A DNA stretch of 64,000 bases from Paraeggerthella hongkongensis (lineage in GTDB: Bacteria; Actinomycetota; Coriobacteriia; Coriobacteriales; Eggerthellaceae). The stretch is taken from NCBI RefSeq assembly GCF_003340345.1, contig NZ_PPTQ01000003.1, positions 62,001 to 126,000 on the forward strand, written 5' to 3'. A program made the position numbers and the translations under genes. The notes below the pieces were generated by a model. It was not told where the DNA came from and ran no database searches. It was given only the letters and a program-made list of their open reading frames with translations. Positions 53,187-60,269 of the stretch are shown one piece after another. Each line of letters starts with the position of its first letter. Position 1 is the stretch's first letter.

Positions 53187-53215
53187 TTGTTGATTCGCGT
53201 TATTTTTGCTAGGAT
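53187..53215 (+). promoter_or_regulatory. Promoter for the Cna-B surface protein
   Basis: TTGTTG and TAGGAT are exactly 17 bases apart, leaving a leader of about 170 bases with a CGGCCG...CGGCCG hairpin near 53350. Confidence 0.45.
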
Positions 53216-53390
53216 GCGCCTCAACATCGCGCAGGACGTTGCAGAAAATGCTGTGCTTGCCGCATGCGAGGGCTGCGCTGCTTCGGATCTCGCACGCTCC
53301 CTTCGCGCTTGCTGCGCGTCTTGCGAATTCGGAATGTGCGATGTTGCTCGGCCGAATAAGCGGCCGGTTGAATCGAAGGAGTCGGCAACG

Positions 53391-54971
53391 ATGGCGTTGA
53401 AGAAGGTTTTCTGCATGCTTGCGGCGGCTGTGGTCGCGTCCTTTGCGTGGACGGCGATCTTCGGTGCTGTTTCCGCGCAAGCTGACGAATGGAACGACGA
53501 AGAGACGCAGACCTCGACCTTGTACTTTGCCTGCGTCATGGCGCAGGGAGCCCAACCTGCTTTGGTTGACCCGGGGAACATGGCTTTGGGCGTGGAGGGC
53601 ACGCTGTACGATGACGCCGGGGCAGTGGTGGCGGTGGCGTCGTCGTCGGACAACGGGTACCTGGTGTTCAAGGGCCTGGCATGGAACGGCACGTACACGT
53701 TCAAGGTGACGGGCATGCCTGACGGCATGTTTCCCGTGCGGCATCAGTACAAGGCGGGATCGGACGAATACCTGATCACGGTCACGTCGCAGGGGTGGGT
53801 TCTGGTTGACGGGAAAAGCGGAAACGCTGCGGCTCCGACTCCATCCTTTCCCGGCGTGAACCATCTTGGGGGCAAAACCCCGTTCAAACTGTATTTTGAC
53901 CGGCTCCCCTCTGTTTCCAAGACGGTGAACGGTGTCGATCGTATCGAATCCGAACCTGGCGATGAGCTTGTATTCGAGGTTTCCTCGACGTTGGGGTCGG
54001 CGGTGGGGTATACGTTCAGCTTCCTGCCGGCTGCTGATCTGCGCATTGCCTACGATTCGGTTGTGTTGAGCGATTTGGTTGATCCTATGCTGCAGGTTGA
54101 GCGCGTGGAGTGCTTTCTGGACGGGGATCTTCTTGCGCCTGAGGAGTGCGTTATCGTTCAGGAGGACCGCGGTGACAAGGGGACGTTCGTCTCTGCGGCG
54201 CTGACGCGCGAAAAGCTCGCGCAGCTTGTCGTGAACTATCCGGAAGCCGCTTCGTCTCATGAGGTTGTGCTGAAGGTTTCCGCCGTTTTGAAAGAGGAGG
54301 CTCGGCATCCGATCGAAAACGAGGGGACGTTCACGATAAACGGGTACGGCGCGCATAGCAACGTGGTTGTCGTGGTGCCGTCGACGATCGATGTTCCCGC
54401 GCGCAAGGTATGGGAGGGCGTGTCGGACGACTTTCCGGCTGTTGCGTTTCAGCTGTTGAGAAACGGCGAGCCTTACGGCGCGCCCGTTGTGCTCGACGGG
54501 ATGGAGGACGAGTTCGAGCTTGCTCCCTGGCAAACGGCGTGGAGGAATCTTCCCAAGGCCGATATGCAGGGGCGCCCGTTTTCGTATACGGTGAGCGAAG
54601 CGTTCGTGGATCCGTCGGTTGCCGCTTTGTTCGAGGTGGACTATGCGTACGGCACGGATGCGGATCCTTCGATCGTGGTGACGAACAGGGCGCTTCCGGT
54701 GGTTCCGGGCGAGCCGGACGATCCTGAGCCCGGACCGGAGCCGGAGCCCGGCCCTGATCCCGATCCGGAGCCTGGTCCCGATCCGAAGCCCACGCCCAAG
54801 TCCGATGCTCCAAGCGGCGAGACTCCGCGCCCCCTGCCCCAAAACCCGCAGGCCAAGGCAATTCCGAAGACAGGCGACAGCTTTGCGTACGCGGATGCTG
54901 CCGCGCTTGTGGCGCTGTCCGGGACGGTTGCGACGTGCGCTTTCTTCAGGCGGCGGCACGGCGAATCGTAA
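53391..54971 (+). CDS. Cna-B/pilin-like surface protein with sortase-type signal
   Basis: The 526-residue secreted protein has an N-terminal signal peptide (ALKKVFCMLAAAVVASFAWT). An isopeptide-forming D2-type domain lies in the middle (about 180-330) and a Cna-B domain follows (about 335-435, KVWEGVSDD and ALFEVDYAY). Then come a Pro/Asp/Glu spacer (PGPEPEPGPDPDPEPG) and a sorting signal, IPKTGDS, with a membrane segment and basic tail (FFRRRHGES). IPKTG is an LPxTG variant. The ATG at 53391 follows AAGGAG; the frame stays open upstream to 53187 but without a ribosome site. It is likely a cell-wall adhesin or pilin. Confidence 0.85.
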   Translation: MALKKVFCMLAAAVVASFAWTAIFGAVSAQADEWNDEETQTSTLYFACVMAQGAQPALVDPGNMALGVEGTLYDDAGAVVAVASSSDNGYLVFKGLAWNGTYTFKVTGMPDGMFPVRHQYKAGSDEYLITVTSQGWVLVDGKSGNAAAPTPSFPGVNHLGGKTPFKLYFDRLPSVSKTVNGVDRIESEPGDELVFEVSSTLGSAVGYTFSFLPAADLRIAYDSVVLSDLVDPMLQVERVECFLDGDLLAPEECVIVQEDRGDKGTFVSAALTREKLAQLVVNYPEAASSHEVVLKVSAVLKEEARHPIENEGTFTINGYGAHSNVVVVVPSTIDVPARKVWEGVSDDFPAVAFQLLRNGEPYGAPVVLDGMEDEFELAPWQTAWRNLPKADMQGRPFSYTVSEAFVDPSVAALFEVDYAYGTDADPSIVVTNRALPVVPGEPDDPEPGPEPEPGPDPDPEPGPDPKPTPKSDAPSGETPRPLPQNPQAKAIPKTGDSFAYADAAALVALSGTVATCAFFRRRHGES

Positions 54972-55073: not shown

Positions 55074-55103
55074 AAAAAGGCCAGACGATTGTCTGGCCTT
55101 TTT
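55074..55103 (+). terminator. Terminator after the Cna-B surface protein
   Basis: AAAAAGGCCAGAC, loop GATT, then GTCTGGCCTTTTT: a palindromic hairpin with T tracts on both sides. An inverted copy with loop AATC lies at 60160. Confidence 0.85.
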
Positions 55104-55366
55104 GCAGTCACCTAGCAAACCCATTCTGCGACTGTTTGTGGGAAAGGATTGAGAATAGGGGTGTTTCTGCAACCGGCGTTACTTCGCATTGAAGCAGCTT
55201 TCTTGGTGTCGTAACGCTTTTTATGTTCGAGTTCGTAGTGCGAGCACAATGCCCAGGACCGTTCCATACATTATGCCCGAACTAAGGATTCGAGTGCTAC
55301 AATTCTAGCATCACTGATGGAGCGGCATCGATTTGCTCCAATGATAAAAAGGGGGCTAGCTGGAAG

Positions 55367-58300
55367 ATGTGGAAGGGCGTAAAGAAAATATCTGCGTCGG
55401 CAATGGCAGCTATTTTGGTTGCCATGTCGGTTCCGATGGCAGCATTCGCTGACTCGGCGAGCGACGATACATCGGGGGGGGGCTCTCCTCGAGGCAATTG
55501 ATCAGGGATCCCCAGGTTCGGTAGAGCCTGAAGATCTCGTCTCGGATTCGTCAGCCGAGCATAAAGAAGCTTCTGACGAGGTGGCAAGGATCGCGGCCGA
55601 GGAGCCGCGCAACGCAGCTGCAACGACGTTGGATCCGCTCTCGCAGGTGTCCGCCGCTCGAGGTACTGTGTATGAAATTGCCAGCGGCAATGATGTCGCA
55701 TCTGCTGTGGCAGCTATCGAAGCCTCGGATTCCGCCGAGGCGACTATCAAATTCACCGCAAACAACATTGACGTGAACGGATTTGCCGGCATTGTGGGCA
55801 AGCGGGTTGTGCTGTGCAGCACTGAAGGGCATAAGTTCACGCTCGACAAGATGGGCACCGAGCTCGTCGGCGACCTTGTTCTCGACAACGTACGCTGCTG
55901 GGGCGACTATTCCAAAGTGTTTGCGAACGGGCATTCGCTCGAGACTACGATCAATTTCGAGGCTGCAGGCAGCACGATATTGCGATTGTTCGGCGGCGGC
56001 AACGTGGGCAACGACGTGACAGGCGATACGAACCTCGTCTTGCGCGGCGGTAGGTATACGGACGTGTACGGCGGCGGCATGGACAGCAATGTGAGCGGCA
56101 GTACATCCGTGACGATTGACGGCCCGTTTGTTCATGCGGGCGGTCTGTACGGCGGCGGTCATGCGCATGCTACCGACAAGGGCCGGGTTGGCGGAGATGC
56201 CACGGTAGCGGTGCGGCAGGGAACGAATGGCATGTTGTTCGGCGGCGGGCAAAACGAGTATTCTGTTGACAGCCGCGAGCCGGCTAGCGTTGCGGGTAGC
56301 GTGCGCGTCACGCTTGGCTACCCAGGTGCTCCTGCAGGCAGCGTGAACACGGGAATCGCTATGTACACCTACGGTGGATCGTGGCACTCTACGGTGGGCA
56401 ACGTTGTGCTCGAGCTGCTGGACGGCAGCACGAACGCATCTACGGGCGGTGATCGAAATTACTTTGGTTGCGGATACCGAGATACGGTACGGGGCACCGT
56501 CAAGGTCATCGTCGACGGATCCGATCTGCGCTCCGACGGGCATGTGTACGGCGGCGGCAATACGGATAGTAATATGACCGCTGATTACGGGTCGGTGTGC
56601 ATTCTGAACGAGAACAACGAACCGCATGCGCTTGAGATGACCTACAATTCTGCGTCCGACAACACGGACGGCGGCATGCAGGCGGGAAGCAGCGGTAGCA
56701 TTCCAACCGAAATCAAAGGAGACGTGCTTCTTCGCATGGCGGGCGGAAACATTGCCTTTGCGATTCTCGATAGCGGGGATGCTGGTGCCTGCACCATTGC
56801 GGGCGAGGCGACGATACGGGTCACCGGCGGTCGTATCGCGCAGATCCAGGGAAACAGAAACGATGTTGGCAGCAGTCACCTCGTTTACGATGGGTGCGGC
56901 TCAGCTGACGCTCCGCAAGAGAGCGGCTATGTGTTTAGTTTCAAAGATGCGGCACTCGTGAACGCCGCGAACGTCCGTATCGACAGTGATGCATTCTTCC
57001 AGTTTTCGGGCGTCCAAAAACCGTTTTATTCAAAGCCCGATCTCTCAATCGGCAACGCGAGCATGCTTACTACGCGCGATAGCGACACGCAGGTGTCGAG
57101 GGTGTTGGCAGACAACGGTACCTGGCACGCGCTTGGGAAAGTGTACGTCTACGAGGATTTGACGAGCAAGAACGGCTATTATTTCTGGGACAAGTACTTT
57201 GCCGTGGGGCAAGGGCATAAAAGCGACCCAGATCCTGCGCTATTCGATGCGTATCGAGGCGAGGGAGACGAGTTCGTGGGGTTGAAGGAAGGCGCGTTTG
57301 TTAGTCGGTTCTACGGCAACGTCTCTCTTTCAGACTGCGATGTTGCGTTCATGGGCCCTGTAAACGTTTCGGGTAACTTTTCGGGTGGAAATTCCTTGCT
57401 GCGCCTTCCTGTTGCTACGGGCAGCAACTACACGGGCGGCGATGACTCCCCTGTCATCCCGCTCAATGTAGACGGCATTGCGACGGGTTCGCTTAGCGTA
57501 CTTGCTGTTAACGCGAGCGATCGCCTGATTCCTTCGGCTCCCGCCCTCGGTGACAACTACGTTACCGGTTGGAAGGCGGATGGCGCTTCGAACGAAGCGC
57601 TTGTGTTGGCGAACGACGACGAGGCGACCGTTGCGGCTGGCCTGTATCTCAAGCGCGTTGAGGATCCGGGCGTGAACGACGGTAGCTACTATATGTGGCA
57701 GGTGGCGAAAAAGCCCTCGTACCGCGTGACCTACGAGTTCGTCAGCGGCACGAAGGACAAGGGGCTCCCGCAGGAGGTGACCGACCTGCTCCCGATCGAC
57801 CCCGCCTCGTACGCGCACGGCTCCACCGTCGCGGCCATCCGGCCGGCCGAGACGGAGGTCCGCACGGACGACGGCGTGTGGGCGTTCAAGGGCTACGACG
57901 CCGACTCGAAGGTGGCCGCCGGCGCGGTGGGCTTCACGGGCACGTGGGAGTTCTCGGCGCACGAGTACCGCGTGACCTACGAGTTCGTCAGCGGCACGAA
58001 GGACAAGGGGCTCCCGCAGGAGGTGACCGACCTGCTCCCGATCGACCCCGCCTCGTACGCGCACGGCTCCACCGTCGCGGCCATCCGGCCGGCCGAGACG
58101 GAGGTCCGCACGGACGACGGCGTGTGGGCGTTCAAGGGCTACGACGCCGACTCGAAGGTGGCCGCCGGCGCGGTGGGCTTCACGGGCACGTGGGTCTTTA
58201 ATCCCAACGCCAGCGTCCTGAACCGCGTCCCGGCCATATCCGCCTCCGACAGGGTGATCGCCGTGGGCGACGCCTTCGACCCGCTGGAGGGCGTGAGCGC

Positions 58301-58898
58301 CCGCGACGAGGAGGACGGCGACCTCACGGACAAGGTCGAGGTGCTGAGCAGCACCGTGGACGCCTCCAAGCCCGGCGTGTACGAGGTGGTCTACAAGGTG
58401 GCGGACGGCGACGGCGCCTCGGCGACCAAGGCCGTCAGCGTGACGGTCAACCCGAGGATGGAGGGCCTGAACCGCGTCCCGGCCATATCCGCCTCCGACA
58501 GGGTGATCGCCGTGGGCGACGCCTTCGACCCGCTGGAGGGCGTGAGCGCCCGCGACGAGGAGGACGGCGACCTCACGGACAAGGTCGAGGTGCTGAGCAG
58601 CACCGTGGACGCCTCCAAGCCCGGCGTGTACGAGGTGGTCTACAAGGTGGCGGACGGCGACGGCGCCTCGGCGGTTAAAACAATCAAGGTTACTGTGCAG
58701 GCTCGCATGCAGGAGCTGCCCGGGAATTCGGATGGCGACTCGAACGCGGGTTCGCAGACGCCTGGGAATAAGTTGGTCAAGACCGGTGACGCATGGGCTT
58801 TAGGAGCCAGCGCCTTTGTCGGTGCAGTTGTTCTTGCCGGCGCCGTCCTTTTGAGCGCACGCCGTCTCATGAAAAACGAATCGGGACGCATTAAATAG
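55367..58898 (+). CDS. Large SHIRT/Ig-repeat surface protein, frameshifted at a G9 tract (phase-variable?)
   Basis: The ATG at 55367 opens a clear signal peptide (MWKGVKKISASAMAAILVAMS, cleaved near AFA) but this frame stops at 55499-55501, giving only 44 codons. The long frame that runs on to 58898 has no signal peptide of its own. Deleting one G from the 9-G tract joins the two in frame, the join reading TSGG then ALLEAIDQG. The combined protein, about 1,175 residues, has a Gly-rich beta-helix-like region (residues about 180-480, GGG repeats), two identical SHIRT-type repeats of 82 residues, two near-identical Ig-like (HYR/DUF5011-type) repeats of 83 residues, and a sorting signal LVKTGD with membrane segment and basic tail. 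In the sequence shown it is in the OFF frame. Confidence 0.8.
55474..55482 (+). repeat. G9 homopolymer, probable phase-variation switch
   Basis: Nine consecutive Gs sit right after the signal peptide. Eight Gs would give an open frame to 58898, nine do not. A sequencing or assembly error at the homopolymer is the main alternative. Confidence 0.6.
57720..58194 (+). repeat. Two identical SHIRT-encoding repeats
   Basis: Bases 57720-57948 and 57966-58194 are identical over 229 bases (period 246). The base composition is much more GC-rich than in the upstream part of the gene. Confidence 0.9.
58218..58673 (+). repeat. Two identical Ig-like-encoding repeats
   Basis: Bases 58218-58424 and 58467-58673 are identical over 207 bases (period 249). 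They encode the DAFDPLEGVSARDEEDGD repeats. Confidence 0.9.
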
Positions 58899-59538
58899 CA
58901 AGTAGTGCGGAAAGGAAGGAAAAGAAAAGAAACGAGTCGCGGCGAGGAAACCCTGCTCCGTTATGCTCGAGCGTAAGGCGTGTGCTCTTGCATACCCGGA
59001 AAACGCTACGAGCGTCTAGACAGGGTCTCCCTGCCTCTCGTATCGAGGTTTGGGAAAGAGCTTAGGTTTGAGCTGCGATCGGGTGCGACGTGCGCGCATG
59101 CTGCTGCAGGAGGAGGGGCTATCGGGATGGGCCCCGGTTCTTGCGAAGTGGCATCCAGGTTGAGAATGAGCATCGGGCAACTCCGCTGAGACGGCAGGAG
59201 GTTCTTGCGCCACGCTCCCGGTGGCTTTCCGACGACCTCGTCCGGTATCCCATGCATCGTGTTTTGGCGGCGGGGAGGCGATGCCTTCTCGCCGCCGCTT
59301 TGATATGGAGGCGTGTCGCGTTCGACGTAGCCATAGTGAGCATCCTCTACGAAACGCTGGCGGGCAAGCACGCCGGCGATCGTTGGTCGTGATGCGGACG
59401 GTGGCGTCGTTTCGATGGAAAGCCGCCCTGGGTGCGCGCTGCCATGCCGCGCAGTGCGTCTTGGAGCGCAAAGACGATTGGGGGAGCTTTGATCATCGTG
59501 TCTTCTGTAGCGCGCTATTTTTCATAAATTTAGTATAT
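58899..59538. other. Intergenic stretch without an assignable gene
   Basis: This 640-base gap between the surface-protein gene and the toxin-antitoxin pair shows only short, overlapping open frames on both strands, none with a convincing ribosome site or recognisable domain. It has no clear RNA gene. Confidence 0.5.
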
Positions 59539-59552
59539 ATTTTGTACAAAAT
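59539..59552. promoter_or_regulatory. Palindrome upstream of the toxin-antitoxin pair
   Basis: ATTTTGTACAAAAT is a perfect 14-base palindrome in the AT-rich stretch about 55 bases before the antitoxin start. Autoregulation by the antitoxin is usual for this type of pair, so it is a candidate operator. Confidence 0.55.
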
Positions 59553-59605
59553 TATTCATCAATAGTAAAATGGCATCATCGAAAACACGACGGAGGGAGT
59601 TTGCC

Positions 59606-59869
59606 ATGACTACCATGACCGTGTCCTCGTCCGAGTTCCGGCGCAATATGCCGAACATTGTAGGCAAAGCTGAAGAATCCGGTGCGACGATTGTCGTCAT
59701 CAAGAATTCGCGCCCTTGGTTCGAGATAAGGCCGTTGGCTCGTTCTCACGACGAAGTGCCAACGGAGGAAACCCTGGAGGCGCTTCGCGACCTCGAGGTC
59801 ATGCGAAAAGACCCAAACGCCCCGGTATATCGCGACGTTAGCCAGTTCTTCGCTGATCTGGGAATCTAA
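59606..59869 (+). CDS. Phd/YefM-type antitoxin
   Basis: The 87-residue protein has the Phd/YefM fold: a SSSEFRRNMPNIVGKAEESG helix-turn and VVIKNSRPWFEIRPL strand, with a C-terminal toxin-binding half. The ATG at 59606 has GGAGGGAG upstream; an in-frame start at 59570 precedes that site. It is followed two bases later by the toxin. Confidence 0.83.
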   Translation: MTTMTVSSSEFRRNMPNIVGKAEESGATIVVIKNSRPWFEIRPLARSHDEVPTEETLEALRDLEVMRKDPNAPVYRDVSQFFADLGI

Positions 59870-59871
59870 CG

Positions 59872-60156
59872 ATGTACGGCATGCGTAAAGCTCCGGCCTT
59901 CGATCGGGATGTGAAACGATGCGTCAAGAAGCATCGGGATATGGGCGCCTTCAAAGAGGCAGTGGCTGCTGTGCTCATGAGCGATGAGGCGGTCATCCCT
60001 TTGAAGTACAAGGATCACGCTCTAGGCGGTGATCTGCAGGGAATGCGAGAGCTGCATGTCGGAGGGCGCAGCAGCGACTGGCTTATCCTGTACTCCATTG
60101 ACGGCGATGTCGTGGAGTTCGTTCGTACAGGCACGCATGACGACCTGTTTAGATGA
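59872..60156 (+). CDS. YafQ/RelE-type mRNA interferase toxin
   Basis: The 94-residue protein has the YafQ pattern: FDRDVKRCVKKHRD near the N-terminus, KYKDHALGGDLQGMRELHVGGRSSDWLILY in the middle and the catalytic-type ending RTGTHDDLF, whose His is the expected active-site residue. It cleaves mRNA on the ribosome when the antitoxin is lost. The gene follows the antitoxin by two bases. Confidence 0.87.
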   Translation: MYGMRKAPAFDRDVKRCVKKHRDMGAFKEAVAAVLMSDEAVIPLKYKDHALGGDLQGMRELHVGGRSSDWLILYSIDGDVVEFVRTGTHDDLFR

Positions 60157-60159
60157 TAG

Positions 60160-60186
60160 AAAAGGCCAGACAATCGTCTGGCCTTT
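60160..60186. terminator. Terminator after the toxin-antitoxin pair
   Basis: AAAAGGCCAGAC, loop AATC, then GTCTGGCCTTT: the inverted copy of the hairpin at 55074. It sits between the toxin stop and the 3' end of the convergent tRNA gene and may serve both. Confidence 0.8.
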
Positions 60187-60194
60187 AAAATTCA

Positions 60195-60269
60195 TGGTGG
60201 GCGATGAGGGATTTGAACCCCCGGCCTTGTCCTTGTAAGGGACCTGCGCTCCCGCTGCGCCAATCGCCC
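60195..60269 (-). tRNA. tRNA-Val (anticodon UAC)
   Basis: On the minus strand, GGGCGAT pairs with ATCGCCC as a 7-base acceptor stem, and the 3' CCA is encoded. The D stem is GCGC/GCGC, the anticodon loop is CTTACAA, giving UAC (valine), and the T arm is GGGGG-TTCAAAT-CCCTC (one G-U). The anticodon stem has one mismatch at its outer pair (G27-A43), a minor oddity. A TTGCGC/GAGAAT promoter (17-base spacing) lies just upstream. Confidence 0.9.

Follow-up and report, generated by a model that had tools for sequence, protein, structure and literature searches.

The window, a 64,000-nucleotide stretch of the Paraeggerthella hongkongensis genome, carries a gene for an adhesin predicted to be secreted and wall-anchored that very probably undergoes slipped-strand phase variation, and that would be OFF in this assembly (2.86 Mb, draft, 53 contigs). 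From its layout and from its homologues, we infer that the switching is reversible in this strain. The features of the locus are as follows:

55367..55501, + strand: signal-peptide ORF from ATG 55367, 44 aa, with a Sec signal peptide; sequence read directly
55474..55482, + strand: G9 tract, the proposed slippage switch; length taken from one draft assembly
55483..58898, + strand: adhesin body frame, open from just past the tract up to its stop at 58898; in the G9 state, not in frame with the signal peptide
55512..57680, + strand: N-terminal domain with a YGGG-rich strand pattern, conserved in homologues from Eggerthellaceae and from two further families of the order
57719..58194, + strand: two SHIRT domains (Pfam, 1.3e-43); 246-bp tandem repeat, 100% identical in DNA
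58217..58673, + strand: two Ig-like (Bact_surface_Ig-like) domains (Pfam, 1e-24); 249-bp tandem repeat, 100% identical in DNA
58773..58895, + strand: sorting-signal-like C-terminus, comprising LVKTGD, a hydrophobic stretch and a basic tail (RRLMKNESGRIK); recognised by eye

The 44-codon ORF from ATG 55367 (MWKGVKKISASAMAAILVAMSVPMAAFADSASDDTSGGGSPRGN) begins with a signal peptide, written MWKGVKKISASAMAAILVAMSVPMAAFA-DSASDDTSGGGSPRGN, for which cleavage is expected after AFA in ...MAAFA-DSAS. This peptide was called by sequence pattern rather than by a trained predictor, and the same one is present in the closest homologue, from the complete genome of another Eggerthellaceae genus (G095). The G9 tract lies 35 codons past the ATG, within the 5' coding region, so that a change of one nucleotide in either direction shifts the frame of the remainder, and in the G9 state the ORF reaches a stop shortly past the tract (stop ending at 55501). 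The body comprises 1,137 open codons one frame on from the signal-peptide ORF, and no start in its frame yields a signal peptide, the first in the ORF listing being TTG 55419, which gives MPCRFRWQHSLTRR.... Direct reading thus confirmed the original prediction, which had placed a signal peptide at 55367, a large body in the next frame and nine Gs at 55474-55482 just after the signal peptide. Its further claim, that the two parts join only if nine Gs become eight and that the gene is OFF as assembled, agrees with the frame arithmetic, by which in-frame tract lengths are congruent to 2 mod 3 and G9 is therefore out of frame.

Slipped-strand mispairing at a G tract situated just past the signal-peptide cleavage site would switch expression on and off at random. 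At any length congruent to 2 mod 3, translation from 55367 would run from the signal peptide through the tract into the body, and the exported protein would then be anchored at the surface by a sortase; at G9, the ribosome would halt a few codons beyond the tract, leaving the 44-aa peptide and no surface protein. The remainder of the gene would stay intact because cells come back into frame frequently enough to expose it to selection.

The body is a large multidomain protein. The N-terminal domain, of about 660 residues and kept in relatives, did not figure in the original description of the gene; no Pfam family matched it (55512..57680), and its fold is probably beta-helical; AlphaFold2 on the single sequence returned a mean pLDDT of 35, too low for a fold reading. 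The predicted SHIRT and Ig-like repeats were recovered by Pfam, and these domain types suggest an adhesive role. Since the tandem repeats are identical, they could provide a second layer of variation, in length; the adhesin has 2 Ig-like domains and its G095 homologue about 10, a comparison between different genera rather than between strains of one species. The predicted LVKTGD sorting signal was present as a motif (58773-58790; LVKTG, not the canonical LPXTG), and scans with protein-family models gave no LPXTG or anchor match at the C-terminus of this protein. The homologue in genome G130 matches Gram_pos_anchor, which together with the C-terminus of the adhesin points to sortase anchoring. 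No sortase was detected in this genome at the Pfam cutoff, the single sortase-like match being sub-threshold and on another contig.

Because G/C runs are common in this genome (25 of at least 8 in the whole assembly, 19 of these of at least 9), a lone G9 in some gene would be unremarkable, and the strength of the case comes from the homologues. We collected these by profile search in the family and the order and inspected each singly, obtaining 14 loci, with the gene itself left out of all counts. A G/C run of 9-14 lies within the first ~170 codons in 6 of the 14, against 0.06 expected (P about 1e-11), and in 9 of the 14 when 260 nt upstream are included, against 0.09 expected; expectations were derived from each genome's own run density, and because the 170-codon and 260-nt limits were set after seeing the data, the P values are indicative and the effect is best stated as about a hundredfold. 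Within coding sequence, G130 has G9 near codon 150, G128 has C9 after 87 codons and G102 has C9 after about 90 codons, all in frame. Runs of 10 lie upstream of the start in G089 (157 nt), G220 (107 nt) and G052 (258 nt). No run of at least 9 was found at the loci of G356 (two copies), G350, G027 and G117; in G350, a G7 forms the spacer within a TTGACA-TATAGT promoter-like pair.

The two phases of one site are captured in G128 and G136, which belong to the same genus. At the site of the G128 tract, G136 has C10 and the gene falls into two parts, a signal-peptide ORF and a body frame of 1,262 aa from stop to stop; the DNA flanking the tract is 83% identical over a 251-bp alignment, with C9 in frame and C10 out of frame. 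A second homologue in G136 repeats the layout of the locus in the window: its signal peptide MYRKSKGISRLMCCLCLAAACLMTGNQAFA is followed by TTSDFAA, a G10 and a body in another frame. In related genomes the proposed switch is supported by homologue tracts of 9-14 G/C in both phases, including the C9/C10 pair at one site. A difference in tract length that gives both phases is seen among homologues (G128 and G136), this species being represented by one genome, and a contig scan with the adhesin as query found no relative.

Several facts weigh against the switch. Nine Gs is near the lower limit of the lengths at which slippage has been demonstrated, the locus comes from one draft genome, long tracts in Paraeggerthella and G095 lie mostly outside signal-peptide genes, and the sortase match is sub-threshold. 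A sequencing or assembly error, with the true tract in frame and the gene constitutively on, is unlikely, even though the assembled length in a 53-contig draft could be off by one and G-tract lengths in databases are unreliable (PMC9187656). One such error cannot explain why homologues have tracts in differing places, some in frame and some out, and a slightly shorter run here would still be a plausible slippage site. The homologues bear also on the idea that the G run, through transcriptional slippage or programmed frameshifting, yields a constant low level of full-length protein with no heritable switch. Nine Gs can be slippery for RNA polymerase or the ribosome, and such a mode is not exclusive with a switch in the DNA, but the body lies in the +1 frame, out of reach of the -1 shift usual in bacteria, and among homologues some lengths keep the frame and others break it, as a change of DNA length predicts; as the explanation of this locus, we regard it as decidedly unlikely.

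The adhesin gene lies in an accessory block of about 5 kb (55079-60183) that comprises the adhesin and a toxin-antitoxin pair and adjoins tRNA-Val (60195-60269). The block ends are GGCCAGACGATTGTCTGGCC at 55079-55098 and its reverse complement at 60164-60183, of which one copy remains in P. hongkongensis DSM 16106 (G001), a genome to which a window protein shows 95% protein identity. Downstream of the adhesin, at 59570-60156, a small ORF is followed by a RelE/StbE-family toxin (8.5e-16); the small ORF, which has no NCBIfam match, is a probable antitoxin. No sortase lies beside the adhesin, and this antitoxin-like ORF and toxin occupy the downstream position, with no pilus operon. A neighbouring surface protein (53187-54971), with a Cna_B domain and an IPKTGDS tail, is intact, lacks a long G/C run and is kept in G001. 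The adhesin gene and the toxin-antitoxin pair following it are missing from G001, which is of the same genus.

A gene in a block that is missing from G001, and known from a single genome, might be a recent pseudogene, with the frameshift fixed and the gene being lost in this lineage. Rates of substitution in the body point the other way. Compared with G095, dN/dS is 0.39 for the N-terminal domain and 0.31 for the repeats and anchor, values that saturation makes rough; between in-frame G128 and out-of-frame G136, it is 0.37. These sequence comparisons indicate that the body is under purifying selection, with dN/dS about 0.4, and hence that the gene is not an old pseudogene, as genes that had long been off would look otherwise. 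With 1,137 codons open without a second lesion, and the one lesion being exactly a homopolymer, placed in the region that holds tracts in homologues, we consider pseudogenisation very improbable.

That the two halves are one gene is shown by G095, in which the same signal peptide and body are fused in a single open frame of 1,852 aa. The G095 protein starts MWKNAKRMSASAVAAILVIMSIPAGGGGAFADSVSSGESVEGGALLEIIDQESPGSVEPEDIVSD and continues uninterrupted through the same domain order as the adhesin. Its signal peptide shares 63% amino acid identity with that of the window over 35 codons, the residues right after the G9 tract (ALLEAIDQGSPGSVEPEDLVSD) match those of G095 in its single frame, and the 5' untranslated regions resemble each other. 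The original prediction would have been undone by a homologue whose conserved frame included a different start bearing the signal peptide; G095 instead uses the same signal peptide in one frame. There is thus next to no likelihood that the locus holds two genes, one for a small secreted peptide and one for a body that stays in the cytosol and has its own start, for although both frames are open and TTG 55419 lies in the body frame, the body has an anchor-like end, yet none of the starts in its frame gives it a signal peptide, and G095 fuses the same two parts.

The G095 gene has a tract of its own, a G14 inside the signal peptide, where the locus in the window is non-repetitive. At the position of the G9 tract, G095 has GAGGGAGGGG, and at the position of its G14 the window has GATGGCAG. 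The two tracts, ~60 bp apart, therefore arose independently. Beyond the single gene, we think it somewhat probable that Eggerthellaceae, and perhaps the whole order, possess a multi-locus adhesin contingency system, in which the signal-peptide region, the first ~170 codons or the promoter of homologous adhesin genes would acquire long G/C tracts time after time, each independently, and switchability would be conserved while the position and sequence of the tracts turn over. In G136, at least five genes have the order signal peptide, tract, body, and in four of these the assembled tract puts the body out of frame.

To survey tracts genome-wide, we examined runs of at least 9 in six genomes, taking all of them in five and most in the sixth (G095, 67 runs), and scored those that join a signal-peptide start, through the tract, to a large body. 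In the genus g64, 8 of 32 such runs do so, compared with 5 of 107 short G/C control runs from these loci (Fisher P 0.002). No excess over controls was seen in Paraeggerthella and G095 (5/102 versus 32/655), most of their long tracts lying outside signal-peptide genes. A general enrichment of tracts of at least 9 in signal-peptide genes therefore holds in g64 and is undetectable in Paraeggerthella or G095, where the false-positive rate of the classifier is about 5%, with antisense ORFs the probable source. One match, L124 in G001, looks like an antisense artefact and was not counted.

The survey also brought up individual tracts at other genes. At locus L123 of G001 (2505-2518), an LRR_5/Listeria-Bacteroides-repeat surface protein has a C14 in its signal peptide, four codons past the ATG and in frame as assembled; this case slipped past the classifier but looks real, and the adhesin's own genome (G000) has no match to L123. 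In G095, an SBP_bac_3-GGDEF protein has a C15 (L167, 2506) directly after its signal peptide, out of frame as assembled, making this a possible phase-variable diguanylate cyclase sensor, and a beta-helix protein has a G11 at its signal peptide; these two cases also look real. Further genes with a signal-peptide-like start, a G9 or G10 and a large body, some in and some out of frame, are L133, L136, L139 and L141 in G136 and L104 in G128; in the orthologous pair L104/L133 the tract is kept between species as G9/G9. Upstream of a LysR-type regulator, tracts occupy orthologous places in G000 (G13; contig C12, L016 4085-4097) and G001 (G10; L119 2522), separating TTGTCG and TATCAT boxes by spacers of 19 (G13) and 16 (G10), and this tract is likely to be a promoter-spacer slippage switch. 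Also in G000, a G12 (contig C19, L020 4018-4029) precedes by about 150 nt the open frame of a membrane protein similar to the MFS-LuxR-type regulators of the window, and on contig C45 (L023 4066-4109) a facing G10 and C12, separated by 22 bp, form a GC-rich inverted repeat.

Coriobacteriia, among them Eggerthella and Paraeggerthella, are important for the metabolism of drugs and bile acids in the gut, and little is known of their attachment and surface variation. If the slippage switch operates as proposed, a single reference genome would give a wrong picture of the surface proteins available to a strain, adhesins annotated as broken would often merely be OFF, and colonisation, immune recognition and phage sensitivity could differ between sister cells. 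If the multi-locus system exists as well, these common gut bacteria would have combinatorial surface states.

Our literature search found no published homopolymer phase variation in Coriobacteriia or Eggerthellaceae, or in a stand-alone SHIRT/Ig adhesin. Within the family, the capsule of Eggerthella lenta varies in phase by megabase inversions (preprint PMC13174815). This too is phase variation of a surface trait, but it works by inversion rather than slippage and on a capsule rather than an adhesin, and the preprint does not mention homopolymers. Periscope proteins, such as Sgo_0707 of Streptococcus gordonii, vary in length, their tandem SHIRT repeats projecting an N-terminal domain from the surface (PMC8201768). 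The adhesin shares tandem SHIRT repeats with them, here identical in DNA so that their number could vary, and differs in the added on/off tract and in an N-terminal domain from another, unnamed family. In Gardnerella, long G/C tracts are numerous, lying inside or upstream of ORFs that bear surface motifs (Rib, GA, LPXTG), and a length change of one of them was shown by Sanger sequencing (PMC11287997); the tracts are similar in lying in surface genes, but in a different class (Bifidobacteriaceae) and in different protein families. The closest parallel in layout is Bifidobacterium breve UCC2003, also a gut actinomycete, in which a G-tract switch of sortase-dependent pili was shown for bbr_0113 and bbr_1889 by Maximum Depth Sequencing, with slippage of -1+3n restoring the frame and in-frame lengths enriched in mice (PMC9187656). 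As in B. breve, a signal-peptide ORF is followed by a G tract and an out-of-frame body whose frame lacks a start or signal peptide, and the productive change is -1+3n. The B. breve genes, however, head pilus operons with a dedicated sortase and a canonical LPXTG, whereas the gene in the window encodes a stand-alone adhesin of an unrelated domain family with an LVKTG motif, its switching deduced from sequence. The original suggestion that such switching is little described in Eggerthellaceae holds in that we found no report of it, but with the mechanism known in B. breve (PMC9187656) it is less new than was implied: the kind of switch is established, and its occurrence in Coriobacteriia is, as far as we found, new.
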